Shown: positions 2,354 to 43,596 of the stretch, one piece after another
Layout: each line of letters opens with the position of its first letter
How positions within the stretch are numbered: the stretch's first letter is position 1
Assembly (NCBI GenBank): GCA_026391945.1
Contig: JAPLDA010000054.1
Coordinates: 1 to 50,514, forward strand
Reading direction: 5' to 3'
Length of the DNA stretch: 50,514 nucleotides
Source: Bacteroidota bacterium
Lineage (GTDB): Bacteria; Bacteroidota; Bacteroidia; AKYH767-A; 2013-40CM-41-45
Translations under genes and position numbers: made by a program
Notes under the pieces: model-generated
The model's input: the letters and a program-made list of their open reading frames with translations, nothing else
Databases searched by the model: none
What the model was told of the DNA's origin: nothing

Positions 2354-5300
2354 ATGAAAAAAATTATAGCGCTTCTCATTCCATTCCTGGTAACCGCTGC
2401 CTGTGTGCAGGCGGATTCGTGGCAACAAAAAGCAAACTTTGGTGGAACAGGCCGTTACAATGCCACAGGTTTTTCTATTGGGGACAAAATATATTTTGGC
2501 CTCGGTGGTGATGCAGGTTCAGCCAGGAATGATTTCTGGGAGTTTGATGTTCATGCAAATACCTGGACACAAAAATCGAATTTTACAGGATCAGCAAGAA
2601 CATCGGCTGTTGGTTTTTCTGTAGGCACGAAAGGGTATGTCGGAACCGGCGTTGACTCGCTTGGTTTCAAGTTTGATTTTTATGAATATGACCAGGCCAG
2701 CAATACCTGGACACAGAAATCAAATTTTCCGGGAGGAGGAAGGGCGAATGCCGTTGCCTTTGCGATGAATGGAAAGGGATATGTGGGTACCGGTTACAAC
2801 GGCGGATACACCTATGACTTTTGGGAATATAATCCTGCCATCAATGCCTGGATTGGAAAACCTGCATTTCCGGGAGGTCCGCGCGACAAGGCTGTCGGGT
2901 TTTCAATCGGGAATCATGGTTATATAGGCACCGGCCAGAATGCAGGCGGCAACCTGGGTGATTTTTGGGAATATAATCCTGTCACCAGTACGTGGCAAAT
3001 GAGAGACAGTTTACCTGGTCCCGGCCGTTTCGGGGCAACAGGTTTCGGAGTGAATGGAAAAGGCTATATCGGACTCGGAACCTATAACAGTAATTATCCA
3101 AATGATTTTTGGCAATATGATACGCTGGTTGGACACTGGAGCCCGGCCACTATTTTCCCTTCGATGGGCAGGGCCTATGCAGTTGGTTTTTCTACTGCAA
3201 ACCTGGGGTTTGTCATATCAGGTAATAACGGTTTTGGAACTTATCTGAACGATACATGGTCGTTTGGACCCATTCGGGGAGAAGCATTGAACTTTGATGG
3301 TATTGATGATTATATAACCGGCCCGGTTGAATTGATTCCCGTTACCGGGAATTATACAGTTTCTGTTTGGGCACAGAACACCAATCTGCAATCGGGTACG
3401 TACAGGGAAATTGTTTCGCAGGGACGGCATTTTTATATTGGTTATGACATCAGCAGAATGATTCGTATCGGTGATGATTGGGTGAACACAGGAGTTCCTT
3501 TTCCTACCGATGGAAACTGGCATAACTATTCTGTTGTCAGGTCCTCAACGAATACTATTTTATATATCGATGGTGTTCAGGCCGCATCGGCCGGGTACCC
3601 GATCCCGAATCCCACCAACACGCCGCTGTATGGCAATCCGGTTGCCACATTTGTGATCGGTGAGCAATGGTGTTATCCATGCAATGAAAATTTTTCAGGT
3701 AATATTGATGAAGTACGCGTATGGGGAAGAAATCTTACTCATGCGGAAATCCTTCATAACCTCTCATGCGAAATACCTTCAACTGCCACGGGACTTCTTG
3801 CCAACTATCATTTCAACCAGGGAGTTGCAAATGGAACGAACACCGCTGATGTTATTCTCGGTGACTCAAGCGAGAACGGCAATAACTGTTCGTTGATTAA
3901 TTTTGCCCTGAATGGAAATACTTCCAACTGGGTTCTTCCCGGCGGTGTTGTAACAGGAAATGTTTGCTCTCCATGCAATCCTTTGACCTGGTATATAGAT
4001 GCAGACGGCGATGGTTATGGAAACCCGCTCGTAAGCCAGGTGTCTTGCAGTCAGCCATTGGGCTACGTCACCGACCAAACCGATTGCGATGACTCCAATC
4101 CGAATGTTCATCCTTTTGCCATCGAAATTCCAAACAACGGAATCGATGAAAACTGTGATGGCCTGGATGCTGACGTGCTGGCTCAGTCCGACACTTCGTG
4201 GAAATATTCAAACACGCTGGAGCTGGGATGGGAGCAAACGGCCTTTGATGCATCATCATGGAATCCTGCCTTTGCCATTGGAAGTGGATGTTTCGGAGGA
4301 ATTCCTAATACAACAAGGATATGGGGCGATCATAACAATGGCTGGACTTCTTACCTGAGAAAATCATTTCTTGTCGGAAGCATCACAACACCTGTTGTCT
4401 TGGATTACGAAATAGATGATGATGTGACCATCTATGTGAATGGACAACTTGTGGTGTTAGACCAGGACGGACAAGCAACAGGGCCCATCTATGATGTGAA
4501 CATTGCGCCTTACCTGGTTCCTAATAGTATCAATGTGATAGCGGCGCAAGTCACCGATATCTATTGCTGTGATTATGGTTTTTGCGTTAGGGCTCACAAC
4601 GTTGCAGGAAATTTCATCACCTATTATGCCGATGCTGACGGCGATGGTTTCGGGAATCCGTCTGTTGATTCCTTAGCGGTCATGATGCCTCCCGGTTACG
4701 TGTTGGATAATTCGGATTGCGATGATACCGATCCAATGGTTCATCTTTCATCCCCGGTCATTGTTTCCGGCGGCCCGCTAACGTTGCCTTCCTGTACAGG
4801 TGCTTCTGTGAACCTGTCTGTCGGTAACTTACGCAATGTGCATTTTGCAGATGCCGTTCTTGGTTACAGCAGTGGATATTCCTCTCCTGATTACGGTCCA
4901 GGCCAGGCACTGGGTGCCCCGGATGTGTACCCGGCTTATGGTGACAATCCATTGGCCTGGTCCCCGCTGTCGCAGGATGGTTCGCGTGAATACATCGACC
5001 TTGGATTTACCAATAGCGGACAGGTGAACTTTATTGACATTTATGAAACGTATTCACCGGGCTCCATCGACAGTGTCTATATATTCAACCCATATAACTA
5101 TACGTATGAACTGGTGTATTCTGCTGCTGCCGGTGCTGCCGGCGAAACAGCAAGGATTCTGCATATTACTTTCCCAACCCCTGCGTTTCCGGTCACGGCT
5201 ATCAGGATCATGATGAACTCACCTTTTGTTCATGACTGGAATGAAATTGACGCCGTGTCCATCGGGCAGATTGTTCCTGCCAGCTATTCTTCTTATGCAT

Positions 5301-8300
5301 GGTCCACCGATGAAATCACACCTTCCATTGCTGCAGCTGCAACCGGTAGCTACAGCGTTACAGTGAGTACGGGGGGATGTACCGGAATGACTCCTCCGGT
5401 TGAGATCACCAGTACCCACGTCATCGCCGGCCCAAGTTTTAACTGGGAGATATGCCCGGGTACTTCCACCGTTCTGGCAGCAGGAGGAGCATCAATATAC
5501 CTGTGGAATACCGGTGATACTTCTTCTTATATTACCGTTGCACCAACGGTGGTAACTACTTATTCTGTTATTGGAACAGATGCGTATGGATGCAGCAGCA
5601 CCGATAGCATCACTGTATATATATATAATCCTATACACCCGGGAACTGTAGTGGTACAGGGAGCCTGTACGCAACAATCCAATGGTAGCATTCATGTTGG
5701 TCCGGCTACCGGCGGAGTGTTGGGCGGTTACACGTATACACTTTCCGGGAATGACCAGTTATTTCAAAACACCGATGGGGTTTTTGACAACCTTTTTTCC
5801 GGTAGTCATCATCTCAACATCATGGATGGTGCATCCTGTTCATTCGATACCACCATCATGGTGCCTGACATTTCACCGGCTACCGTCATCTCTTCCAGCG
5901 ATACCATTTTCTGTGAAGGTGATACGGTTACACTCACGGCTCCCGCTTCTGGTTCATATGCCTGGAGTACGGGCGACACGGCACAAAGCATCACGTTTAT
6001 CGCAACGTATGATCATTTGCTTTTCCTGCAAAGAGGTTCGGTGGGTAGCCATACGCAAAGCCGTATTTATTCGGTGAACACATCCGTGAACGGATGCAAC
6101 AGCATTGGTCTCATAACGATATATACTAATCCTTCACCGGCTATTGTGCTGGCAGCATCAAGCCCTGATTGTTACGCCTATCTTTTCAATGTCAACATAG
6201 AAGGAACAGGCGGAACGGCACCTTATTCAGGAACCGGAACATCACTGGTACAACCTGCATTTTATTCTCCTGACACAACATTGAATTTCTCCATCACTGA
6301 TTCGAGCGGATGTACTGCCTCGGGTTCGATCCTGGTCACTCAACCGACACCTGTTACTGCGGGAATGTCGGCTGTTACAAATGTTACCTGCCATGGCGGT
6401 TCTGACGGAAGCATCCAGCTATCAGGCGTCACCGGCGGAACACTTTTGTCAGATACCCATGCCTACCCGACTGGATATTCTTATTTCCTGTTTGGACCAG
6501 GTGGTTCTTACCCTGTGAATTCAACAGGTTTGTTTACAGGATTGCCGGCGGGAAATTATTTTATCGGCGCCTACGACGGCCATGGCTGCGGATTTTATAT
6601 CAATGGCGGAATCTCCTTGACCATTACGGAGCCGGATCCACTAATCATCACTTCCACTCCGGCTAAACCGGAAGTTTGTCCTCATGAGCTGACGAACGTT
6701 GTGCTGTCAGCATCAGGAGGAGTAGCACCCTATACCTTTTCAGGAGATTTGACAACTGATCTTGCGCCCGGAACATATCAATATACAGTTATAGATTTTA
6801 CCGGTTGTTCAGCAAACGATACAGTCAGGATTTCGGAAAATGTTTTACCGTCACCGGTCATCACAGCCAACGGTTCCCTGTATGTCTGCACAGGAAGTTC
6901 TGTTACGCTCAAAGTCCAACACCTTGGCGGCACTGCTTTGAATTTCGATGGAGTGGATGACTATGTGGAAGGTTACAATCCGAATCTTCCCGTCGGTAAC
7001 GAAGCCCGTACGATTGAAGCCTGGATCAACCCGGCACAATTTCACAGTGGTTCCATTTTTAACTGGGGATCATACAATGGGTTTGTCTCAAACGACCGTT
7101 CAGGTATCCTCTATATCAATCACCATTTATATTTTGTGGGCGAGAACAATGACCTGGAAGGCGGCATCCAGATTGATCCGGGAGTCTGGACACATGTGGC
7201 TGCGACGTTTGACGGCAATACACTTTCATTATATGTAAACGGTGTTCTTGATGCCAGCAGAACGATAAACCTTTCAACCGGCCTTACCAATTTCAGGATC
7301 GGCATGGGCAATCCGACAACAAACTATCAGCCGTTCAACGGAGCTATTGACCAGGTGAGGGTTTGGGATTATGCACTTCAGCAAAGTGAAATCATTTCAA
7401 ACATGAGTACATCCAATCCAACTGGTAATCCGCCGGTGGTTCTTGTCAGGAATTCGAATTATGTTCCGGCGAATGGATTGGTTGCTTATTATATGTTCAA
7501 TGAAGCGGCAGGAATTACAACCAATGATGAAGTGCTTGATTCTTCCGCAGTATTATATAACGGTCCGGCCTGGATCACCTCCAATGCGCCGGTCGATCAG
7601 TTCACCGGATATAGCTGGTTGCCCAATGGTGAAATCACGGATACCATTGTTGTTTCTGACCCGGGTACTTATTCAGTGCTGGTTAATAATTCGCTTGGCT
7701 GTAGTGCCACTTCTTCGATAGTGGTCACCGTTCGTCAATGCATCCTTCCGTATTACCAGCCGCCTGACAGCGGAAAGACCATTACTCCGCTGGGTTCGGA
7801 ACTTACGCAATTGTACCAGAACCCGGATTCGATCGGTGACACAACGAACAATGCCGTGTTCCTTGTTGACCAGGGATCAGTTCTGATTGAAGTGATTTCC
7901 AACGCAGGAATGCATGACAGTTTATATACCTTGCTTCAGACTCCGGCATATGGAATGAATAACTTCATCAGCAACGGTGATACGACCCTGATCATTACCG
8001 GTAATTTTCCTATTGTGCATTTGCCATTGCTTAACGGTCTTCCGACGTTGATTAATTACGTCCGCCCGTATTATCCGCCCGTCAGCAACACCGGGTTTAT
8101 TTCGAGCGCCGGTGATATTTCCATGCGCTCCGATTCAGCACGAAATGTATTTGATGTCGACGGTGAAGGAGTTAAAGTCGGTGTGATATCCGACAGTTAC
8201 AACACACAGTCTGGTGATCCTGCATCAACCGACCGGTTAAACGGTGATCTTCCCGGAGCCGGCAATTCGTCCGACACCACTTCGGTGGAAGTAGTAGCCG

Positions 8301-11300
8301 AATATCCGTTCGGTAAGCGTTCTGATGAAGGACGAGCTATGTTGCAGGTTGTGCATGACATTGCGCCTAAAGCGAAACTTGCTTTCAGAACAGGCTTTGT
8401 AAGTGCCGGAGATTTTGCGGAAGGTATAAAAGAAATGCAATCGGCCGGTTGCCATGTGATCGTGGATGATGTATCGTATGTAACGGAGCCATTCTTCCAG
8501 GACGGTGTGGTATCGAAAGCCGTTGATTATGTGAAGGCGCAAGGGGTCTCGTATTTCACGGCCGCCGGTAATTTCGGAAACAAATCATATGAGGGCGTCT
8601 TCAATCCGGTTCCGGCACCACCGGGAATGACAGGCAAAGCCCATGATTTCGGCGGCGGCGATATATACCAGAGTGTCACGTTGCCTCCAGGAGTATATAC
8701 CATCGTCCTGCAATGGGATGATTCTATATATTCTCTCGGGGAATTACCGGGAGCAAAAAATGATCTTGATATTTACCTCACCGATAATGCAGGAGGAAAA
8801 CTTTTTGGATTCAACAGAAAAAATAACTGGGGTGATCCGATTGAAGTCCTGCCGTTTACTGTTGGCGGGGGAACTGCTACCGCAAACATCATGATTGTAC
8901 GGGCATGGGGAACCGACAATGTGAGATTCAAATACATTGTGTTCCGAGGCGAAATGACCATCAATGAATTCCAGGGCGGCAACTCCACCATTGTGGGACA
9001 AGCCAACTCGGAAGGAGCAATGACGGTGGGAGCAGCGTTGTATTCCAACACGCCTGCATTCCATGTGAATCCACCGACGGTTGCATCATTCTCCTCCATA
9101 GGCGGCGGCGCAGTAAGAGGAGGGGTGCGTAACAAACCGGATTTTGTAGCGCCGAATGGTGTGAATACCTCTGTGAGTTTTGGAGCGCCGGATTACGATC
9201 ATGACGGCAATCCTAATTTCTTCGGAACATCATGTGCTGCTCCGCATGCTGCCGGTGTGGCCGCGCTTCTGATTCATGGAAGAAGGAAATTTTATAGCGA
9301 TGATTTAAAGCCTGACAGCGTACGTGCCATACTCCAGAGAACATCCATTGATATGGACGCCGCCGGGTTTGATTTTAACACGGGCTCCGGTTTGATCCAG
9401 GCTGATGCTGCGTTGCAATCTTTTGCGACACCAAGACCTGTCATCACACAACTGAATCTTTCCAATAATTCCATTACTCCGGGAACGCAACCGGTGGATG
9501 TCACGGTTGTTGGTTCTTACCTGTCGCCGCAGTCACAAATTGTTTTCAACGGAACCATTCTCACTACAACGTTTGTGGATGTGAATCATCTCACCGCTAC
9601 TTTCCCGGGTTTCAACGGCAACCCTGCAGTCCAGGTATATAATCCGCCTATCACGCCAAGCGGAAGCGATGGAGGTTATTCCGATCCGTTGTATTTCTTC
9701 ATGAATTACAAACCGACGGTGAGAGTGACGGCTGATCACAAAACAAAACGCTACGGAGAAAAACTTCCTGATTTTACGTTTACTGCGACCGTAGATAATG
9801 TTCCACTGGCGAATACAGGCCTGAGCTTTGCAGATCTCGGACTTGATTCGGTTTACTTCACTTCGTCAGCAACCAGCGCAAGCAACACCGGTAATTATTT
9901 CATTCATCCTTACATTGAACTGGATACCCTGAACGATTCGGCGGATGCTGTACTCTATCATACGTATAGTTATATATTCAATGACGGGTTGCTCGCCATC
10001 AGGCGAATGCCTGTGGTGGTATCCCCGATGGATACGACGTTGGTGTATGGTGATAAAATAGCCGGTTTCCATTTCAGTTATGATTATGACCAAACCAACA
10101 TCGATATCAGCGACCAGGCTGCCTTCCTCAGTTCTATTGAAGCTGATCATAGTTCAACCATGACCGATGCCATTGCATTCGTGGATGCTAAAGTAGTCAC
10201 CAATGGAAAAGTGGTCACCAATGTTGACCTCACCAAACTGAGCATGCTTACCAGCGCCAAAGTGGTGACGAATGCGAAGGTGGTGACGAATGCGAAAGTG
10301 GTGACCAATAGTATCGTGTTTGATACGACATTGCTGGTGGAAGTAGCTCCGCAATCCATATTCAATTATGAAAATGATTCGGCGAACACCACGCTCGAAA
10401 GTCCGGGACCGGGTTCTCATTCACGTGCATTGCTCAATGCCAAAGTAGTTACCAATGGTGTTGGGATCGTCAATGCAAAAGTGGTGACCAACGGCTCACC
10501 GATTGTAAACAGCACTACGGTTTCCGACAGCAGCAATGAGAAAACGGTAGTCATCATTGATGAAGACGATGTCGCGGATTCTTCCAATACGCTTACGGAT
10601 CTGAAATCAATCAACATGATTACCGGAATGACGGTGGGTGTATGGACGATTGTTCCGGGCGCTTTGATATCCGACAACTTTGATATATCCTATGGATTGG
10701 GAACCCTCATCATTACACCGGCAACTCTTGTTGTAAAGGCGGATGATAAAGATGCAGCCTGCTCAGCACTTCCTGAATTTACTTCAACGATCACCGGGTT
10801 TCAGTACAGTGATTCTGCCAATACGGTTGATTCCATTCCTCCGTCTTATGCTGTGTTCGATCATTCGAATGTACAGGTGAGCGGAATTCCTCCTGCCGGT
10901 AGTTATGATATCGTCCCGGGTGGATTGATGCAATTTGTTCAGCCGGATTATATAGTTCAATATGTCAACGGTTTATTGACGATGCCTTCCGCAATTACGC
11001 TCACAGCTACACCAACACAGCCTTTGTGTTCAGGTGACGTCGGCCGTGTAACACTCGTTGCCGGCGGCGGAGCGGGTTCATATAGTTATGGCGGAGATGT
11101 CACCACCAATCTTGCCGGTGGGACGTATCATTATACAGTTACGGATGCAAATGGCTGTATCGCCGAGGCATCCGTCACGATGGACGATGCTCCTGCATTG
11201 TTGACGTTAACTGCCACACCGGAACAACCAAAATGTTTCGGCGAAAACGGGAAAGTTACACTCGTTGCAAATGGAGGAACCGGTTCTTATTCGTTTGGAG

Positions 11301-13906
11301 GAGACCTGAGTACAAACCTTCCTGCCGGAACCTATCATTATTCGGTAACAGATGATCATGGATGCAAGGCTTATGCATCCGCAGAAATATTGGCAGCCCC
11401 GCCTTTGCTGACATTGACGGCTACAGCCACTCAACCATCCTGTTTTGGCGACCTGGGAAGTGTGAACCTTCAGGCAGCCGGCGGAGCCGGATCCTATTTG
11501 TATGCGGGAGATAAAAATGTTCTGATGGGTCCCGGAACCTATTATTATTCTGTAACGGATTCAAACGGCTGCCATGCCTATGCAACGGTTACGATCGATG
11601 CTGCGCCATCGCTTCTTGATTTAATTGTCACACCTTCACAGCCAAAATGTTTTGGGGATAAAGGAAGCGTATCCTTGCTTGCCGGTGGTGGTGTTTCATC
11701 TTATTCATATAGCGGTGATGCCATCACCAACCTTGTTGCCGGAACTTATCATTATATGGTTACTGACGGAAACAATTGCCAGGCAAACGGAATAGCTGTT
11801 GTCAATGCTGCTCCTTCAGCGCTGGTATTGACTGCAACTCCTGTTCAGCCGATGTGTTCCGGTGATAAAGGAAGTGTTACATTAAGTGCAACCGGTGGAA
11901 CCACACCATATATATATAGTGGAAGCGCCACGACTAATCTTACTCCGGGCATTTATAATTATATCGTGAAGGATGGCAACAACTGTTCATCCAATGCTTT
12001 TGCTACGATTAATTTGGTAACACAGGTTTCAGGCATTACTTCAGTGACTCCATCCGGTTGTTCTGTCAATTCAGGAACAGCGATGGTGACGCCTTCGGGC
12101 GGTAGTCCGGGTTATAGTTATTCCTGGTCACCCGGCGGACAAACCACTCAGACTGCTACCGGCCTTGCAGCCGGAAATTATACGGTGACCATTAAGGATT
12201 CTCACAACTGTACGGGAACTGCTTCGGCTACTATTTTTTCTGCCGGTACGTTCCCTGCCGTCCCGGGAGCTATCAATGGTCCATCTGGTGCATGCAGAAG
12301 CCAGTCAGGTGTTGTGTATTCTGTAAGTGCAGTTCCGGGTGCAACAGCCTATCTATGGACAATTCCATCCGGAGCATCCGGATCTTCTTCCACGAATTCA
12401 ATCACCGTCAACTTCAGCAGTTCATATAGTGGCGGGTCCATTTGTGTGAAGGCATTGAATGTTTGCGGAACCAGTGCGTCTTCCTGTATTAACGTTCCGC
12501 GGATCTCATCAGCTCCTTCAACTCCCGGTTCAATTTCCGGATCTTCTACCATGTGCGCACCTGCGACGGGAGTTTATTCGGTTGCTGCAGTGGCGAATGC
12601 AACCAGCTACTCATGGACTGTAGCAGGAACGGGATTATCCATCACATCCGGACAAGGAACTAAATCCATCACCGTTTCTGCAGCTTCAGGATTCACCAGT
12701 GGCTCTGTTTCGGTGAGAGCAGTCAATTGTGCGGGAAGCAGCAATGCGGTGACTAAAAATGTGTTCGGATCTTTGATCAGCGTACCGGTTTGGTTCCCTG
12801 ACCCATCCGATAACTTCGCCATCGGAGTTTGCGGAGGCAGTATGATGGAATATGAAATTTACCAGGTTCCCGGAGCAACATCTTATACATGGTCAGCGCC
12901 GGCCGGTTGTATTATTTCCGATGGGCTTGGACATTCTGGAAATCCGCTCACTTTCGCCGGACAGAATGCAGCGGGAGAATGGGAAGTATATATCACGTTC
13001 CCTTCCGGATTTGTTTCAGGCAATGTAAGTGTATATGCAAGCAATGCATGTGGGAACAGTCCCGTTCTGTCCATGGCAGTTCGTTCAGCGCCTGTAGCAC
13101 CGGCAGCCATCGCAGGCAACACTTCCAATGTTTGCCGTAAGAGCGGGTTGATCTATTCGATTCCCGCAGTGAACGGCGCCACATCCTACACATGGAGTGT
13201 TCCTTCGGGTGTAACCATCGTCACCAATTCAGGGACGTCCATCAAAGTGAATTTCGGAAACAGCTTTACCTCTTCCGGGAACATTTGTGTGAAGGCGAAT
13301 AATACCTGCGGATCCAGCGCTCAGTCGTGTATTACTGTGAAGGCACCACCTGATCAACCAGGAACGATAACGGGTGCCGCTTCTGTATGCAAGAGCCAGT
13401 CATCGGTTGGTTACTCCATTGCTGCTGTAACCGGTGCAACATCGTATTCGTGGAGCATTACAGGTGGAGCAATTTTCGTCGGGGCCACTACAGGAACTTC
13501 CGTGACCGTTAAATATTCTTCTTCCACTTCAGCGTCTGCGACTTTATCTGTGAAAGCGAACAATACCTGTGGATCGTCTGTTGCGAGAACGTTTGCTGTT
13601 GCCGTCAATCTCAGTTGCCGCACTACAAATATGAATGAAGAAGTGAACCTGCTTCCGGGTGTCCAGGTTTATCCGAATCCTACTTCCGGTAAAACCAATG
13701 TTGTTTTCTACGCGGAAGAGGAAAAAGATTATTACCTGGAAGTGATGGATTTCACCGGGCATCGTGTGTACAGCAGAACCATCAAGGCGCAAAAGGGAAA
13801 CAACATCAGCGAAGCTGATCTCAGCGGTTTTGCTTCCGGTTTGTATTTCATCAGCGTTGCCGGTGAAGGCACACCGAAACAGACCGTGAGAGTGACGGTC
13901 GAATAA
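2354..13906 (+). CDS. giant multidomain T9SS-exported protein with subtilase-like, Kelch, LamG, MBG and SprB segments
   Basis: A 3850-residue secreted protein (roughly 400 kDa) in one uninterrupted frame. Order seen: signal peptide (1-20); about six Kelch-like repeats of some 50 residues, each with a D(F/T)W-type motif (21-310); LamG-like domain (312-475); MopE-like metal-binding motif, DADGDGYGNP then DCDDSNPNVHP (from 546), a galactose-binding-like segment, then a second MopE-like motif near 757; F5/8-like segment (825-975); SprB/Ig-like repeats (980-1515); second LamG (1529-1700); subtilase-like domain with Asp1947 (GVISDSYN), Asn2073 (AAGNFG) and Ser2293 (GTSCAAPHAAG), but no HGTH motif; MBG-like domains (2452-2880) interrupted by KVVTN repeats; SprB repeats (2881-3222); five PKD-like repeats; and a T9SS sorting domain (from about 3766, VQVYPNPTSGK). 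A surface adhesin with protease-like activity is the simplest inference; substrate unknown. A strong terminator follows at 13926. Confidence 0.9.
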   Translation: MKKIIALLIPFLVTAACVQADSWQQKANFGGTGRYNATGFSIGDKIYFGLGGDAGSARNDFWEFDVHANTWTQKSNFTGSARTSAVGFSVGTKGYVGTGVDSLGFKFDFYEYDQASNTWTQKSNFPGGGRANAVAFAMNGKGYVGTGYNGGYTYDFWEYNPAINAWIGKPAFPGGPRDKAVGFSIGNHGYIGTGQNAGGNLGDFWEYNPVTSTWQMRDSLPGPGRFGATGFGVNGKGYIGLGTYNSNYPNDFWQYDTLVGHWSPATIFPSMGRAYAVGFSTANLGFVISGNNGFGTYLNDTWSFGPIRGEALNFDGIDDYITGPVELIPVTGNYTVSVWAQNTNLQSGTYREIVSQGRHFYIGYDISRMIRIGDDWVNTGVPFPTDGNWHNYSVVRSSTNTILYIDGVQAASAGYPIPNPTNTPLYGNPVATFVIGEQWCYPCNENFSGNIDEVRVWGRNLTHAEILHNLSCEIPSTATGLLANYHFNQGVANGTNTADVILGDSSENGNNCSLINFALNGNTSNWVLPGGVVTGNVCSPCNPLTWYIDADGDGYGNPLVSQVSCSQPLGYVTDQTDCDDSNPNVHPFAIEIPNNGIDENCDGLDADVLAQSDTSWKYSNTLELGWEQTAFDASSWNPAFAIGSGCFGGIPNTTRIWGDHNNGWTSYLRKSFLVGSITTPVVLDYEIDDDVTIYVNGQLVVLDQDGQATGPIYDVNIAPYLVPNSINVIAAQVTDIYCCDYGFCVRAHNVAGNFITYYADADGDGFGNPSVDSLAVMMPPGYVLDNSDCDDTDPMVHLSSPVIVSGGPLTLPSCTGASVNLSVGNLRNVHFADAVLGYSSGYSSPDYGPGQALGAPDVYPAYGDNPLAWSPLSQDGSREYIDLGFTNSGQVNFIDIYETYSPGSIDSVYIFNPYNYTYELVYSAAAGAAGETARILHITFPTPAFPVTAIRIMMNSPFVHDWNEIDAVSIGQIVPASYSSYAWSTDEITPSIAAAATGSYSVTVSTGGCTGMTPPVEITSTHVIAGPSFNWEICPGTSTVLAAGGASIYLWNTGDTSSYITVAPTVVTTYSVIGTDAYGCSSTDSITVYIYNPIHPGTVVVQGACTQQSNGSIHVGPATGGVLGGYTYTLSGNDQLFQNTDGVFDNLFSGSHHLNIMDGASCSFDTTIMVPDISPATVISSSDTIFCEGDTVTLTAPASGSYAWSTGDTAQSITFIATYDHLLFLQRGSVGSHTQSRIYSVNTSVNGCNSIGLITIYTNPSPAIVLAASSPDCYAYLFNVNIEGTGGTAPYSGTGTSLVQPAFYSPDTTLNFSITDSSGCTASGSILVTQPTPVTAGMSAVTNVTCHGGSDGSIQLSGVTGGTLLSDTHAYPTGYSYFLFGPGGSYPVNSTGLFTGLPAGNYFIGAYDGHGCGFYINGGISLTITEPDPLIITSTPAKPEVCPHELTNVVLSASGGVAPYTFSGDLTTDLAPGTYQYTVIDFTGCSANDTVRISENVLPSPVITANGSLYVCTGSSVTLKVQHLGGTALNFDGVDDYVEGYNPNLPVGNEARTIEAWINPAQFHSGSIFNWGSYNGFVSNDRSGILYINHHLYFVGENNDLEGGIQIDPGVWTHVAATFDGNTLSLYVNGVLDASRTINLSTGLTNFRIGMGNPTTNYQPFNGAIDQVRVWDYALQQSEIISNMSTSNPTGNPPVVLVRNSNYVPANGLVAYYMFNEAAGITTNDEVLDSSAVLYNGPAWITSNAPVDQFTGYSWLPNGEITDTIVVSDPGTYSVLVNNSLGCSATSSIVVTVRQCILPYYQPPDSGKTITPLGSELTQLYQNPDSIGDTTNNAVFLVDQGSVLIEVISNAGMHDSLYTLLQTPAYGMNNFISNGDTTLIITGNFPIVHLPLLNGLPTLINYVRPYYPPVSNTGFISSAGDISMRSDSARNVFDVDGEGVKVGVISDSYNTQSGDPASTDRLNGDLPGAGNSSDTTSVEVVAEYPFGKRSDEGRAMLQVVHDIAPKAKLAFRTGFVSAGDFAEGIKEMQSAGCHVIVDDVSYVTEPFFQDGVVSKAVDYVKAQGVSYFTAAGNFGNKSYEGVFNPVPAPPGMTGKAHDFGGGDIYQSVTLPPGVYTIVLQWDDSIYSLGELPGAKNDLDIYLTDNAGGKLFGFNRKNNWGDPIEVLPFTVGGGTATANIMIVRAWGTDNVRFKYIVFRGEMTINEFQGGNSTIVGQANSEGAMTVGAALYSNTPAFHVNPPTVASFSSIGGGAVRGGVRNKPDFVAPNGVNTSVSFGAPDYDHDGNPNFFGTSCAAPHAAGVAALLIHGRRKFYSDDLKPDSVRAILQRTSIDMDAAGFDFNTGSGLIQADAALQSFATPRPVITQLNLSNNSITPGTQPVDVTVVGSYLSPQSQIVFNGTILTTTFVDVNHLTATFPGFNGNPAVQVYNPPITPSGSDGGYSDPLYFFMNYKPTVRVTADHKTKRYGEKLPDFTFTATVDNVPLANTGLSFADLGLDSVYFTSSATSASNTGNYFIHPYIELDTLNDSADAVLYHTYSYIFNDGLLAIRRMPVVVSPMDTTLVYGDKIAGFHFSYDYDQTNIDISDQAAFLSSIEADHSSTMTDAIAFVDAKVVTNGKVVTNVDLTKLSMLTSAKVVTNAKVVTNAKVVTNSIVFDTTLLVEVAPQSIFNYENDSANTTLESPGPGSHSRALLNAKVVTNGVGIVNAKVVTNGSPIVNSTTVSDSSNEKTVVIIDEDDVADSSNTLTDLKSINMITGMTVGVWTIVPGALISDNFDISYGLGTLIITPATLVVKADDKDAACSALPEFTSTITGFQYSDSANTVDSIPPSYAVFDHSNVQVSGIPPAGSYDIVPGGLMQFVQPDYIVQYVNGLLTMPSAITLTATPTQPLCSGDVGRVTLVAGGGAGSYSYGGDVTTNLAGGTYHYTVTDANGCIAEASVTMDDAPALLTLTATPEQPKCFGENGKVTLVANGGTGSYSFGGDLSTNLPAGTYHYSVTDDHGCKAYASAEILAAPPLLTLTATATQPSCFGDLGSVNLQAAGGAGSYLYAGDKNVLMGPGTYYYSVTDSNGCHAYATVTIDAAPSLLDLIVTPSQPKCFGDKGSVSLLAGGGVSSYSYSGDAITNLVAGTYHYMVTDGNNCQANGIAVVNAAPSALVLTATPVQPMCSGDKGSVTLSATGGTTPYIYSGSATTNLTPGIYNYIVKDGNNCSSNAFATINLVTQVSGITSVTPSGCSVNSGTAMVTPSGGSPGYSYSWSPGGQTTQTATGLAAGNYTVTIKDSHNCTGTASATIFSAGTFPAVPGAINGPSGACRSQSGVVYSVSAVPGATAYLWTIPSGASGSSSTNSITVNFSSSYSGGSICVKALNVCGTSASSCINVPRISSAPSTPGSISGSSTMCAPATGVYSVAAVANATSYSWTVAGTGLSITSGQGTKSITVSAASGFTSGSVSVRAVNCAGSSNAVTKNVFGSLISVPVWFPDPSDNFAIGVCGGSMMEYEIYQVPGATSYTWSAPAGCIISDGLGHSGNPLTFAGQNAAGEWEVYITFPSGFVSGNVSVYASNACGNSPVLSMAVRSAPVAPAAIAGNTSNVCRKSGLIYSIPAVNGATSYTWSVPSGVTIVTNSGTSIKVNFGNSFTSSGNICVKANNTCGSSAQSCITVKAPPDQPGTITGAASVCKSQSSVGYSIAAVTGATSYSWSITGGAIFVGATTGTSVTVKYSSSTSASATLSVKANNTCGSSVARTFAVAVNLSCRTTNMNEEVNLLPGVQVYPNPTSGKTNVVFYAEEEKDYYLEVMDFTGHRVYSRTIKAQKGNNISEADLSGFASGLYFISVAGEGTPKQTVRVTVE
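10187..10492 (+). repeat. KVVTN peptide repeats inside the giant protein
   Basis: Seven copies of KVVTN, mostly as AKVVTN, lie within residues 2612-2713 of the giant protein: two at 10190-10219, three in direct tandem near 10259-10309, and two near 10441-10492. Codons differ between copies (gta/gtg, gtc/gtg/gtt, acc/acg, aat/aac), so most copies are conserved as peptide rather than as recent DNA duplications. They sit in a long insertion between the first strand (PVVVSPMDTTLVYG) and last strand (NFDISYGLGTLIITPA) of an MBG-like domain. Function unknown. Confidence 0.9.
10994..12020 (+). repeat. five SprB-type repeats of about 68-70 residues
   Basis: Each unit starts LTATPxQPxC(S/F)G(D/E), continues with a glycine-rich strand, GSYSY-G-D, a TNL-AGTYHY segment and VTDxxGC. 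Units begin near 10994, 11201, 11403, 11613 and 11820. The pattern matches the SprB repeat of large Bacteroidota surface adhesins. DNA identity between units is modest, so these are old repeats. Confidence 0.8.
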
Positions 13907-13969: not shown

Positions 13970-14563
13970 ATGAATCGTTATTTCAAAATCTACAAACCAT
14001 TCGGAATGTTGTCGCAGTTCAGCAGGGAAGGGGAACATAAAACTCTTGCCGATCTGAATTTTGCTTTTCCGAAGGATGCTTATCCAGTCGGCAGGCTCGA
14101 TACCGACAGTGAAGGTTTGCTGTTGCTCAGCAGCGACAGCAGGCTGAATCATCGTTTGCTGAACCCGGCATTCGGCCATCACCGCTCTTACCTGGCGCAG
14201 GTGGAAGGAGAAATCGATGACGATGCCTGCAGGAAAATCGAAGAAGGGGTCTCCATCAACATCAAAGGAGAAAAATATGTTTCTGAAAAATGCACGGTGA
14301 AGAGAGTGGGAGAGGTGCCGCATGTTCCTGAACGAATTCCGCCGGTTCGATTCAGGAAATCAATCCCGACGTCATGGATTGAATTGACACTGACGGAAGG
14401 GAAAAACCGGCAGGTCAGGAAAATGACTGCTGCTGCGGGTTTCCCGACTCTCAGGCTCATCAGGATTTCCATTGAAAAACTTTTACTGGATGACATGCAG
14501 CCCGGGGATGTACGGGAAGAAAAGGAAGATACTTTTTACAGACTTCTCATGCTGCGCAAATAA
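13970..14563 (+). CDS. rluE: RluE-like 23S rRNA pseudouridine synthase
   Basis: A 197-residue RsuA/RluE-type pseudouridine synthase, which isomerises a uridine in rRNA to pseudouridine; RluE modifies U2457 of 23S rRNA in E. coli. It starts directly with the catalytic domain (MNRYFKIYKPFGMLSQFS), lacking the N-terminal S4 domain of RsuA and RluB, as RluE does. The catalytic motif is GRLDTDSEGLLLL with Asp44 as nucleophile; GKNRQVRKM and LRLIRISIEKLLL are the other family motifs. The length is close to E. coli RluE (217). The gene begins 10 nt after the terminator of the giant protein gene and is convergent with mqnA. The subfamily is fairly secure, the exact rRNA position is by analogy. Confidence 0.85.
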   Translation: MNRYFKIYKPFGMLSQFSREGEHKTLADLNFAFPKDAYPVGRLDTDSEGLLLLSSDSRLNHRLLNPAFGHHRSYLAQVEGEIDDDACRKIEEGVSINIKGEKYVSEKCTVKRVGEVPHVPERIPPVRFRKSIPTSWIELTLTEGKNRQVRKMTAAAGFPTLRLIRISIEKLLLDDMQPGDVREEKEDTFYRLLMLRK

Positions 14564-15380: not shown

Positions 15381-15408
15381 TATTGGGTATTGGGTATTGA
15401 GTATTGAA
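15381..15408. repeat. four tandem heptamers, TATTGGG type
   Basis: TATTGGG, TATTGGG, TATTGAG and TATTGAA follow each other in the spacer between mqnA and the ABC ATPase gene. This is one of several period-7 microsatellites in the window. Confidence 0.85.
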
Positions 15409-27229: not shown

Positions 27230-28102
27230 ATGAAAGTCACGGGTTTCACGTTTATAAGAAATGCCATTCGGTTTGATTACCCCGCCGTGGAGGCCATCAC
27301 TTCCATTCTCCCGGTCTGCGATGAATTCATCGTGATAGCCGGCAACTCCGACGACGAAACAAAAAAGTTGATTCAAAACATCGGCTCACCGAAAATAAAA
27401 ATCTTCGACAGCGTATGGGATGATTCTCTGAGGGAAGGAGGGAAGGTGCTTGCTGTTGAAACCAACAAAGCGATTGAAAAAATTTCCGCCGATTCTCACT
27501 GGGCATTCTATATCCAGGCCGATGAAGTGGTGCATGAAAAATTTCTTCCATCCATTCAGTCATCCATGGAGAAATGGAAAGATGAAAAAAATGTGGAAGG
27601 TTTGTTATTCGGCTACAGGCATTTTTATGGTTCGTATGATTATGTCGGTGACTCTTCCAAATGGTACAGGAATGAAGTCAGGGTTATCCGTCCCGCTTCC
27701 GGCATTTATTCGTTCCGCGATGCACAGGGGTTTCAGAAAAACGGAAGGCCGCTGTACGTGAAGAAAGCCAATGCTGAAATGTATCATTACGGCTGGGTGA
27801 AGCCGCCGTCAAAACAACAGGAGAAACAAAAATATTTTCATTCGCTCTGGCACGAGGATGACTGGCTGAAAAAAAATGTCGGCGACCGTTCTGAGTTTGA
27901 TTATTCGAAGATCGATTCGGTAGCACGTTTTGAAGGAAGCCATCCTGCCGTCATGCAAAAAAGAATTTCAGAAAAAAACTGGACGTTTGATTTTGATCCG
28001 GCGAAAAAGAAAATGAGTCTTAAATCAAGAATGAAAATCGGATTTGAAAAAATATTCGGCTTCAGGGTAGGGGAGTATAGGAATTACAGGATGATTAGCT
28101 GA
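27230..28102 (+). CDS. GT2-family glycosyltransferase
   Basis: A 290-residue glycosyltransferase of family 2, without membrane segments. It would transfer a sugar from a nucleotide donor to an unknown acceptor, perhaps in surface polysaccharide. The N-terminus VTGFTFIRNA and CDEFIVIAGNSDDET is the Rossmann-like donor site; the metal-binding acidic motif is in FYIQADEVVHE. Later, MYHYGWVKPPSKQQEKQKYF is typical of this Bacteroidota subgroup. I prefer the ATG at 27230 (MKVTGF) to the GTG at 27221, because homologous proteins usually start there and a purine-rich stretch lies just upstream. Its last codons and the TGA stop lie inside a 16-bp tandem repeat array (28089-28152), so the C-terminus may differ between strains. 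Confidence 0.82.
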   Translation: MKVTGFTFIRNAIRFDYPAVEAITSILPVCDEFIVIAGNSDDETKKLIQNIGSPKIKIFDSVWDDSLREGGKVLAVETNKAIEKISADSHWAFYIQADEVVHEKFLPSIQSSMEKWKDEKNVEGLLFGYRHFYGSYDYVGDSSKWYRNEVRVIRPASGIYSFRDAQGFQKNGRPLYVKKANAEMYHYGWVKPPSKQQEKQKYFHSLWHEDDWLKKNVGDRSEFDYSKIDSVARFEGSHPAVMQKRISEKNWTFDFDPAKKKMSLKSRMKIGFEKIFGFRVGEYRNYRMIS

Positions 28103-28152
28103 TGGGATGATTAGCTGATGTGATGATTAGTTGATGTGATGATTAGCTGATT
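28089..28152. repeat. four tandem 16-bp units overlapping the end of the glycosyltransferase gene
   Basis: Units GGATGATTAGCTGATG (twice, 28089-28104 and 28105-28120), TGATGATTAGTTGATG and TGATGATTAGCTGATT. The first unit encodes the last residues (Met-Ile-Ser) and stop of the glycosyltransferase. A related fragment recurs beyond the UbiD-family gene at 30364-30388. Confidence 0.88.
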
Positions 28153-28169
28153 GGATGATTTGAGAATTT

Positions 28170-28370: not shown

Positions 28371-28409
28371 CTTTTTTAACTTTAAACTTTTTACTTTTAA
28401 CTTTTACCC
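28371..28409. repeat. TTTTAAC-type heptamer run
   Basis: A degenerate run of TTTTTAAC, TTTAAAC, TTTTTAC, TTTTAAC and TTTTACC-like units with a period of 7-8 nt, ending 15 nt before the UbiD-family start codon. Related arrays lie at 30531 and 32529. Confidence 0.7.
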
Positions 28410-28424
28410 ACAAACAACATCACC

Positions 28425-30350
28425 GTGCCATACCGAAACACACAACATTGGATCAAAACCCTCGAAGATGCCGGCGAGCTTGTACGGATCCGGGAATACG
28501 TCAATCCTCATCTTGAAATAACTGAAATCACCGATCGCATTTCAAAACAATACGGACCGGCGTTGCTTTTTGAAAATACCGGAACCGGTTTTCCATTGCT
28601 CATCAATTCGATGGGAACTGAAAAAAGAATGGCGATGGCGCTGGGAGTTGAACACCTCGACGATGTCGGAAAAAATATGGAAGATTTGCTGAAGCTGCTT
28701 TCTTCCCCGAAAGAAAATCTCGTTGACAAACTGAAAATGCTTCCCACACTTGGTTCGATTGCATCGTGGATGCCGAAAGTGGTTTCGGGAAAAGGCGAAT
28801 GCCAGCAGGTGATCATGAAAGATCCTGATGTGACGAAGCTGCCTGTTCTGAAATGCTGGCCGGAAGACGGCGGACCGTTTCTCACGCTTCCGATCATCCA
28901 CACCAAAGACCCGCTGACGGGAATACGAAATGTCGGTTTGTACCGCATGCAGGTTTTTTCGCCGATGCTTACGGCCATGCACTGGCATCGTCATAAAGTT
29001 TCGGCGCGTCATTTCAATGAATATAAGAAATTAGGATTGAAAATGCCGGTGGCTGTCGCTCTCGGTGGCGATCCTGTATATACCTACGCAGCGACAGCTC
29101 CGCTCCCCGACGGCGTGGATGAATACATGCTGGCTGGATTCATCAGGAAGAAAAAAGTGGAACTCGTGCAATGCCTCACGCAGGATGTGCAGGTCCCTGC
29201 TGATGCCGATATCATTATAGAGGGTTATATAGATCCGCAGGAAGAGTTCATTCTCGAAGGACCGTTCGGCGATCACACCGGTTATTATTCGCTCGCTGAT
29301 TTTTACCCGCGCTTTCACATCACCTGCATCACGCATCGTAAAGACGCCGTGTATCCCGCCACCATTGTGGGAATTCCGCCGCAGGAAGATGCCTGGATCG
29401 GCAAAGCAACGGAACGAATTTTTTTAGTGCCGATCAAAATGACGATGGTTCCTGAAATCATGGACATGTCGATGCCGGTGGAAGGTGTGTTTCATAACCT
29501 CGTCATCGTGAAAATAAAAAAGGAATATCCCGGACAGGCGATCAAGGTCATGCACAGTTTGTGGGGCGCCGGACAGATGATGTTTACGAAGATGATGGTG
29601 GTGGTGGACGGCGACGTCAACATTCACAACACGGAAGAAGTGGCGAAATATGTTTCCGAAAATTTCAATCCTGCCAATGACATCATGTTTTCACAAGGGC
29701 CGGTGGATGTACTCGATCATTCCTGTTCGGTGATGGCATTCGGCGGGAAAGTCGGGATCGACGGGACGAAGAAGTTGCCGGAGGAAACTGGAATGACGTT
29801 GACAGCAGCCGGTGGTGCGTTGACAGAATCAAGAATCAAGAATCAAGAATCAAGAGTGGGGAACCAGGATCCCGGTACTATTCAATTGAAAAAAAAGTTT
29901 CCTGAAATTAAAAACGTCAACGCCTCGTTACTTGAAAAAGGAATTTCTCTCGTCTTCGTTTCCGTTCAGAAGAACCGGAAGAATCACATCCGTGAGCTGA
30001 ATGAAAAACTTTTTGCTCTTGATGCCTTCAAAGAAATCAAAGTGGTGATCTACCTTGATGATATCGTTGACATCACCGACATCGCCGATGCCGTGTGGCG
30101 TTTTGCGAACAACGTGGACCCGAAGCGCGATTATATACTAACTGGCAACAGTGTGTGTTTCGACGGAACCCGCAAAACCAAAGAGTTCGACGATTTCCAA
30201 CGCGACTGGCCGAACATTCTTGTTTCCGACGAAGCCACTATCAAACACATTGATGCTATCTGGGAAAAACTCGGTCTCGGAAAATTCATTCCTTCTCCTT
30301 CCTTAAAATACCGTTCCCAGTTGTACCAAGGTGGGGCGGTGGCGGAGTGA
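28425..30350 (+). CDS. UbiD-family decarboxylase, possibly of menaquinone biosynthesis
   Basis: A 641-residue UbiD-family (de)carboxylase, expected to need prenylated FMN made by a UbiX-type partner. Core motifs are MHWHRHKVSARHF near residue 186, ALGGDP, and the catalytic glutamate region EFILEGPFGDHTGYYS near residue 272. Because mqnA is in the same window, I infer a late step of futalosine-type menaquinone synthesis (MqnL-like); UbiD enzymes also act on other aromatic acids, so this is not certain. The start is a GTG at 28425; no better ATG lies upstream. A four-unit AGAATCA array (29825-29852) lies in the frame and encodes SRIKNQESRVGNQ, between the core and the C-terminal domain. The gene is longer than E. 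coli UbiD (497), mostly through this linker and C-terminal part. Confidence 0.85.
   Translation: MPYRNTQHWIKTLEDAGELVRIREYVNPHLEITEITDRISKQYGPALLFENTGTGFPLLINSMGTEKRMAMALGVEHLDDVGKNMEDLLKLLSSPKENLVDKLKMLPTLGSIASWMPKVVSGKGECQQVIMKDPDVTKLPVLKCWPEDGGPFLTLPIIHTKDPLTGIRNVGLYRMQVFSPMLTAMHWHRHKVSARHFNEYKKLGLKMPVAVALGGDPVYTYAATAPLPDGVDEYMLAGFIRKKKVELVQCLTQDVQVPADADIIIEGYIDPQEEFILEGPFGDHTGYYSLADFYPRFHITCITHRKDAVYPATIVGIPPQEDAWIGKATERIFLVPIKMTMVPEIMDMSMPVEGVFHNLVIVKIKKEYPGQAIKVMHSLWGAGQMMFTKMMVVVDGDVNIHNTEEVAKYVSENFNPANDIMFSQGPVDVLDHSCSVMAFGGKVGIDGTKKLPEETGMTLTAAGGALTESRIKNQESRVGNQDPGTIQLKKKFPEIKNVNASLLEKGISLVFVSVQKNRKNHIRELNEKLFALDAFKEIKVVIYLDDIVDITDIADAVWRFANNVDPKRDYILTGNSVCFDGTRKTKEFDDFQRDWPNILVSDEATIKHIDAIWEKLGLGKFIPSPSLKYRSQLYQGGAVAE
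29825..29852. repeat. four AGAATCA heptamers inside the UbiD-family frame
   Basis: Four perfect tandem AGAATCA units, 28 bp in all, translated as ESRIKNQES within residues 468-476. This type of microsatellite is otherwise confined to spacers in this window, and it sits in a variable linker of the enzyme. Confidence 0.92.
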
Positions 30351-30448: not shown

Positions 30449-30530
30449 CGCCCGATCATCCATTCTCCAGTTTCTCCCCACCCGCTGGGCGGAATGTTGT
30501 GCGAGAGGCAGCGCGTGGCTCATTCCACCC

Positions 30531-30558
30531 TTCTAACTTCTAACTTCTAACTTTTGAC
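30531..30558. repeat. TTCTAAC heptamer array
   Basis: Three perfect TTCTAAC units followed by TTTTGAC. It lies just beyond the stop codon of the membrane glycosyltransferase gene (minus strand, ending at 30578). Confidence 0.9.
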
Positions 30559-43458: not shown

Positions 43459-43523
43459 TGAAAATTGAATGGTGAGTGGGCGCCTGGGATGAACAGAGCA
43501 TATTATTCAATATTCAATTTTCA
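43459..43523. repeat. inverted 12-bp repeat in spacer
   Basis: TGAAAATTGAAT (43459-43470) and ATTCAATTTTCA (43512-43523) are exact inverted copies, with a third partial ATTCAAT nearby at 43526-43532. It lies between the ABC exporter and Nudix genes. It could form a hairpin with a 41-nt loop but has no T run in the right place for a terminator. Confidence 0.75.
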
Positions 43524-43596
43524 CTATTCAATCATTCAGCAGTTACCGGTATTCAGAATATCATAATTGTCAGAACATTTTTCGTACCTTCCATTC

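Follow-up and report, generated by a model that had tools for sequence, protein, structure and literature searches.

The KVVTN array carried by a giant secreted protein of a Bacteroidota bacterium probably acts as a ligand, present in many copies, for a TPR receptor in the periplasm, a reading that we draw from patterns in the sequences. Its repeat units are uniform in peptide and scrambled in codons, and they are shared in trans between paralogs; array genes adjoin and co-occur with genes for TPR sensors, the number of sensors in a genome goes with the number of units, and the unit covaries with residues of the sensor groove. Each copy of the unit (AKVVTN here; other hexa- to octapeptides elsewhere) would be recognised in the periplasm by the TPR domain of a class III cyclase anchored in the membrane, or in some species of a histidine kinase, usually encoded just behind one array gene, and one receptor would read all copies in all array proteins of the cell. 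Because a single receptor would read them all, copies and paralogs would have to keep the same letters and change only with the receptor groove, and letters locked to that groove would give rise to a lineage-specific peptide dialect.

The window (the whole stretch of 50,514 nucleotides that was analysed) holds the array within one long open reading frame, with the following features.

2354-13906, forward strand: giant secreted array protein, 3,850 aa (ORF, translation, Pfam)
8171-9433, forward strand: S8 (subtilase-like) peptidase domain with GTSCAAPH (Pfam PF00082, E=2e-13)
10010-10186, forward strand: first half of the split MBG domain (homolog alignment; AF2 pLDDT mostly 78-88; top VIA-align match 4ng0, Z 4.1)
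10190-10204, forward strand: KVVTN copy 1, slot a1 (this and all further copies from the sequence and a genome pattern search)
10208-10222, forward strand: KVVTN copy 2, slot a2, with G before the copy
10259-10273, forward strand: KVVTN copy 3, slot b1
10277-10291, forward strand: KVVTN copy 4, slot b2
10295-10309, forward strand: KVVTN copy 5, slot b3
10322-10381, forward strand: conserved spacer DTTLLVEVAPQSIFNYENDS between array blocks (family alignment)
10421-10438, forward strand: divergent hexad SRALLN, slot c2 (slot table)
10442-10456, forward strand: KVVTN copy 6, slot c3
10457-10474, forward strand: divergent hexad GVGIVN, slot c4, a slot frequently off-unit (slot table)
10478-10492, forward strand: KVVTN copy 7, slot c5
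10493-10510, forward strand: divergent hexad GSPIVN, slot c6, a slot frequently off-unit (slot table)
10547-10573, forward strand: conserved VVIIDEDDV strand 3' of the array (family alignment; a strand in the AF2 model of homolog L072)
10610-10744, forward strand: second half of the split MBG domain (homolog alignment, AF2 models, VIA-align)
13667-13870, forward strand: T9SS C-terminal sorting domain, Por_Secre_tail (Pfam PF18962, E=8e-12)
13970-14563, forward strand: following gene, a putative pseudouridine synthase (translation, function by inspection)

An earlier note on this DNA had counted seven KVVTN copies, three of them in a perfect AKVVTN tandem, with synonymous codons differing between copies. 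All seven are found at 10190-10492 within the 3,850-aa reading frame, the tandem comprises copies 3-5, and the codon differences are as stated. A degenerate DNA pattern for KVVTN gave 14 matches in the 3.1-Mb genome, seven of them in the window and the remaining seven in a single paralog encoded on contig C40, against 1+1 for a reversed control pattern. Since all 14 fall in two genes, the clustering is not due to chance; the coding-pattern search of the 3.1-Mb genome found no KVVTN outside the window gene and the C40 paralog. The motif had not been recognised as a described one, and unit strings indeed gave unrelated matches only in the open-access PubMed Central literature.

The carrier comprises a signal peptide (called by inspection), kelch, two LamG, MopE-like, S8-like, MBG, SprB and PKD_6 domains and a T9SS tail (Pfam). 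Its N-terminal signal peptide and C-terminal Por_Secre_tail are those of T9SS cargo, and T9SS tails are likewise present in the array homologs. The S8-like domain gives a weak phmmer match to Mirolase and Tk-subtilisin and keeps the D and GTSxAAPH motifs, with DEGRAML where HGTH is usual. Across the family, the S8-like motif is present in 24 of 25 array proteins checked, and DEGRAML replaces HGTH wherever the domain was found, so that this is possibly a sedolisin-like enzyme or one with an altered triad. Lying upstream in the same protein, the domain is a candidate processing enzyme, though the unusual motif puts its activity in doubt. The gene 3' of the window array gene is without TPR sensor features. 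Separately, the window holds 7-bp tandem repeats (TATTGGG, TTTTAAC, AGAATCA, CTTCTAA and TATTCAA, at 15381-15406, 28374-28406, 29825-29855, 30530-30553 and 43504-43538) and an 8/16-bp tandem repeat at 28089-28160.

MBG_2 (PF18676) matches the window protein, the best stretch being 2792-2876, and Pfam matches, homolog alignment and a structural match to 4ng0 together identify the array flanks as an MBG domain of the YG-type beta class. Described MBG domains differ in being without an array, and we found no literature on MBG domains in Bacteroidota in open-access PubMed Central. The proposal that the array splits a single MBG domain is borne out: every homolog retains both halves, the models join the flanks in a single beta core, and 4ng0 is the best match. 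What had been called an insertion is not a recent foreign one, the 200-residue segment being an old conserved module of fixed layout.

Among genomes that are mostly metagenome assemblies, the array segment was found in 23 of 42 from the window's order, in 30 of 294 from one further family (named homologs include Chitinophagaceae, Ferruginibacter and Parafilimonas) and in five of 301 from another (Daejeonella oryzae being a named homolog), and it is rare elsewhere in the phylum (4/395, the window's own genome counted). Members of the Chitinophagaceae and Sphingobacteriaceae have homologous arrays, as do members of the window's order. The usual layout has two hexads and, after a loop of 11 aa, three more; about 37 aa with a conserved spacer (family consensus DTT..VDVAP.SIFNYQ.DS) then lead to further hexads, to VIIDE.DV and the second MBG half, within carriers that span about 1,450-5,100 aa. 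Alignment of 34, and later of ~75, arrays revealed unit letters that are uniform inside most proteins and differ between proteins: AKVVTN, GRVVTS, GRILSN, PRVITN, ARALVN, GRAIVN, AHAIVN, GYALVN (16 copies in the array), SRAIVN (up to 17), IKSVVN, LRGIVS and GIPLVN, besides the 8-mers GQAVTIVN, GTLVQLVN and GQTLTLSN (22 copies). Mixed-unit arrays such as L077 and L081 are a minority, and the slot table has a2, c4 and c6 as slots that frequently depart from the unit. Copy number varies between arrays; the letters do not.

At the DNA level the copies have gone their own ways. Among 72 arrays there are 568 copies that match exactly in peptide, and these use 534 distinct 18-nt versions; from copy to copy, codons agree at 0.44, where the codon usage of each gene would predict 0.37. 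In five close pairs the array protein is 100% identical and the flanks are 81-98% identical, with synonymous codons diverging in the array at about the flank rate; in the two youngest pairs, codons match at 0.85 and 0.94 within the same slot and at 0.59 and 0.51 between different slots. Given these scrambled codons and the slot-wise matching in young pairs, the copies evolve separately in DNA under very strong peptide constraint. The C40 paralog is 74% identical to the window protein over 245 aa, without an indel and with all seven copies retained in different codons, and this, together with the 534 DNA versions and the slot-wise divergence, upholds the earlier note in its preference for selection on the peptide over recent slippage. 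In L116/L134 (G831), no two of the 22 GQTLTLSN copies have identical DNA. In L133 (G778, contig C411), a 9-aa unit, GATSRALVN, occupies four separate slots in scrambled codons; repeated at all slots, such an insertion is difficult to reach by point mutation.

The same letters recur in separate genes of one genome. Within-genome paralogs at 50-60% flank identity had the same modal unit in six of ten cases, against 16% between genomes (p<1e-4 by a resampling that leaves some phylogenetic dependence in the test), and mean unit similarity over all matched pairs was 0.82 against 0.60 expected. In an array-masked tree, the paralogs of one genome in many cases fall in two old clades. Even so, the units of the two clades change together: the paralog pairs of G025 and G039 have RAIVN, those of G033 and G036 have RALVN, all three paralogs of G008 have RVVTN, and in G009, as in G013, the two paralogs have matching mixtures. 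A pattern that allowed I, L, M or F at one position found array genes only, in seven genomes, and these were all-I or all-L in each genome. Codon likeness between the old paralogs in G025, G039, G010 and G008 is no higher than chance. For the window/C40 pair it is 0.62 against 0.37 expected, and some DNA copying between these two arrays may have taken place. On G009 contig C6, two array paralogs (L062 and L139, both with a RAIVN/RPIVN mixture) and a TPR-cyclase follow one another on the same strand. G032 is an exception to unit sharing, and no complete second sensor was found in its genome.

In about 46 of the 63 loci that could be judged (a tally that includes five loci cut or joined across contig ends), the gene directly 3' of the array gene encodes a TPR sensor; the other 17 arrays, the window's included, have no sensor directly behind. 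The sensor is a protein of 640-750 aa with an N-terminal hydrophobic segment, TPR repeats and a membrane helix (segment and helix called by inspection of the sequences), followed by a class III cyclase or a kinase part. All 40 aligned neighbours match TPR_12 in Pfam, 34 of them with Guanylate_cyc and six with HATPase_c, and the sensor TPR matches solved TPRs, Rap3T among them (E=1e-7). When a 'tight' sensor is defined by E below 1e-230, or by being cut by a contig end, the window's order has one in 19 of 23 genomes with an array and in 1 of 19 without (Fisher 3e-7). Cultured strains that carry the pair include Daejeonella oryzae DSM 19973, with units around ARAIIN, and Flavisolibacter ginsengisoli DSM 18119, with GVPVAIV. 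One genome without an array found, G029, carries a tight TPR-cyclase (L185, contig C17:32481-34397); its array may have been lost, may be unassembled or may be too divergent.

For the window genome, a single sensor near an array gene was predicted and then found. Its only tight TPR-cyclase lies at C86:2819-4819, behind the KVVTN paralog: 66 nt upstream ends a T9SS-tailed gene, presumed to be the 3' end of that paralog, and the SprB repeats at its opening are almost identical to the ones at the C40 contig break. From these repeats we infer that the C40 and C86 parts, which have no exact end overlap, belong to one gene. Since the single sensor of the genome stands behind the paralog, the window protein is an orphan array with a unit in common with that paralog. 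Two genomes have two sensors and two units: in G004, C7 with GRVVTS and C58 with PRVITN; in G028, C41 with RALVN and C44 with RALAN.

Furthermore, the unit changes with the sensor. Over 25 cyclase pairs, unit distance and TPR distance correlate at 0.50, and at a partial r of 0.45 (p<3e-4) given the array-gene flanks, in partial Mantel tests that leave some phylogenetic dependence in and understate it. The corresponding values are -0.14 for unit and flank given TPR and -0.09 for unit and cyclase. Judged by the partial correlations of 0.45 and -0.14, the unit tracks the TPR domain of another gene better than it tracks its own protein. A column scan that covered thousands of combinations, with held-out pairs as its control, placed the strongest couplings between the last residue of the unit and receptor position 152 and between the penultimate residue and position 122, with 119, 159 and 192 next; 47 of the top 60 couplings lie in the TPR, which holds 60% of the tests. 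In the table of 46 pairs, units ending in N go with N152 in 39 of 39 cases and other endings in 1/7; V in the unit pairs with Y122, and T with F122 and N159. Fifteen pairs outside the scan (8-mers and 7-mers, two of them seemingly from one genome) had N152 in 15/15 and Y122 for V in 10/10, and four later pairs agreed with both rules (4/4). When independent pairs were counted on a receptor tree built without the coupled region, 3.5 of 4 went the same way for N/N152 and 4.4 of 7 for V/Y122, none went the opposite way, and each rule has too few for significance alone.

In register with consensus TPRs, residues 119, 122, 152, 159 and 192 are helix-A positions 9, 12, 2, 9 and 2, and positions 2, 9 and 12 of helix A point towards the ligand in TPRs that bind peptides. 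A final S or A in the unit does not always go with loss of N152: sensors of the QR-x-I-A-S clade, those of L152 (QRVIAS) and L180 (QRAIAS) among them, retain it and have E192, a position at which N-ending units mostly have T or S192; E192 may offer these sensors a second way of reading the last residue of the unit.

Structure prediction bears on what the array may be. With the window sequence and 34 rows, AF2 gave the MBG core a pLDDT of 70-88 and did not resolve the array; a second model, from homolog L072 (ARALVN) with 46 rows, was confident over almost all of the segment (mean pLDDT 84, pTM 0.83) and gave a compact mixed fold in which one and the same hexad forms a strand or a short helix, depending on the slot. 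Because identical letters stand at non-equivalent places in this model, the fold alone is unlikely to impose unit identity. The best structural match of the MBG core is 4ng0, a lactobacillus MBG-type adhesin domain, and it is weak (Z 4.1 over 78 residues, VIA-align); beyond the core, Foldseek and VIA-align gave no clear PDB match for the array, though a fold need not be new for want of a match. A left-handed beta-helix of hexapeptide repeats, a triangular solenoid with three hexads per coil, was considered and seems less likely. VNGRAI-type units do fit [LIV]-[GN]-x-x-[STAV]-x; unlike such helices, the arrays have units uniform in each protein, tolerate single-unit insertions and, in L072, are modelled as a mixture of strand and helix.

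Could the repeats simply be structural, as strands of a beta ladder or solenoid that have to stay identical because like stacks on like, inside one paralog and from one paralog to another? The alternating hydrophobic pattern, the N/G turns, the slot-specific variants and the folding of the array in the homolog model would suit this idea. Nevertheless, one hexad is both strand and short helix in L072, the unit follows the TPR domain of a different gene more closely than its own protein, and both the sensor adjacency and the N152/Y122 coupling are left without explanation, so that we regard a purely structural repeat as improbable. The short beta-strand ladder suggested in the earlier note is insufficient, hexads occupying non-equivalent places in the fold and the unit changing together in separate genes. 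Another of its suggestions, a ligand-binding repeat, had the theme of binding right and the direction wrong: the repeats look like the ligand, and the candidate binder is the TPR sensor in another gene. Its third, a protease-processing linker, may hold, given the S8-like domain upstream in the protein. Still less credible is that each unit is a cleavage site for the S8-like protease of its own protein, changing with protease specificity beside a TPR gene that is a neighbour for other reasons. Such a protease domain is indeed at hand in nearly all array proteins examined; the residue coupling, however, points to the TPR groove, and with TPR distance taken into account the unit does not follow the array-gene flanks, into which only the last part of the S8 domain falls. 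Least of all do we credit slippage or gene conversion with keeping copies of a peptide of no special role alike. The codons shared between the window and C40 arrays, and a few arrays with similar codons (L022), lean that way, and copying long ago may have played a part when new units arose; as a maintaining force, homogenisation is contradicted by the DNA differences among copies, the vertical evolution of slots in young pairs, the unrelated codons of the old paralogs in G025, G039, G010 and G008, and the scrambled codons of the 9-aa unit at its four slots.

If the array is a ligand, it may be read in either of two forms. In a pheromone form, which we propose tentatively and at somewhat less than an even chance, T9SS giants would carry many species-specific signals of 6-8 residues, freed by proteolysis and read by a periplasmic TPR-cyclase or TPR-kinase, one dialect to each receptor. 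The array proteins would most likely be exported by T9SS; short peptides ending in the last residue of the unit would be cut out, perhaps by the S8-like domain of the same protein, and would reach the periplasmic TPR groove, where binding would switch cyclic-nucleotide or phosphorelay signalling. Against a precursor of this kind stand the compact fold predicted for L072 and the conservation of layout and spacers, which a folded ligand module fits equally well. The TPR domain could instead bind the uncut array, for example in periplasmic transit, the sensor gauging the export or amount of its own cargo with no free peptide; we hold this to be unlikely, at a weight that overlaps with the one given to ligand-receptor reading as a whole, of which it is an alternative form. 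The predicted folding of the homolog array, the conserved spacers and special slots, and the order of the sensor (N-terminal hydrophobic segment, TPRs, membrane helix, by inspection) agree with an intact ligand, and unit-TPR covariation fits it too, but by itself it gives no reason for up to 17-22 identical copies or for a copy number that varies with fixed letters.

Pheromone reading of the arrays would have a parallel in the RRNPP/RRNPPA peptide quorum sensing of Bacillota (Rap-Phr, NprR, PlcR-PapR), which include propeptides with repeated pheromones (PMC11343458) and the pair of the RapF-PhrF structure (PMC3601957). There, peptides of 5-8 aa sit in the concave groove of a TPR superhelix, as predicted from sequence for the arrays; groove residues set specificity, a role that covariation suggests for the arrays; ligand and receptor genes adjoin; and precursors can hold identical or near-identical tandem copies. 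The differences are equally plain. The array carrier is a giant T9SS-tailed surface protein, its units lying inside proteins of about 1,450-5,100 aa, where RRNPP has a small secreted propeptide, and the receptor is predicted to sit in the inner membrane, its TPR part in the periplasm and joined to a cyclase or kinase (TPR_12 with Guanylate_cyc in 34 and HATPase_c in six), where RRNPP has a cytoplasmic TPR protein with HTH or phosphatase function; arrays reach 22 copies, and the phylum is another. By analogy, the array-sensor pair would work like Rap-Phr while standing outside that family. In fungal alpha-factor, the peptide letters change together between species. Its precursors are multi-copy pheromone polyproteins (PMC5850478), and like the arrays they string many peptides, identical or nearly so, along a single secreted precursor; unlike them, fungi use a eukaryotic GPCR and kexin cleavage at dibasic sites, the arrays being without a dibasic spacer. 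Nothing on point was found in the open-access PubMed Central literature for peptide/TPR/cyclase signalling of this kind in Bacteroidetes. TPR-groove reading of peptides is thus already known from RRNPP; what is new is the carrier, the type of receptor, its location and the genome-wide dialect, a combination that matches no described system found.

Identity among copies such as these is normally credited to gene conversion, and the arrays would present a clean case of protein-level identity kept by a trans partner while the DNA copies drift. If our reading is true, it would provide a ligand for TPR-cyclases and TPR-kinases whose input was absent from the open-access PubMed Central literature searched. 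It would also make the receptor code readable, by setting unit residues beside those of the groove, and offer natural matched and mismatched ligand-receptor pairs across dozens of species.
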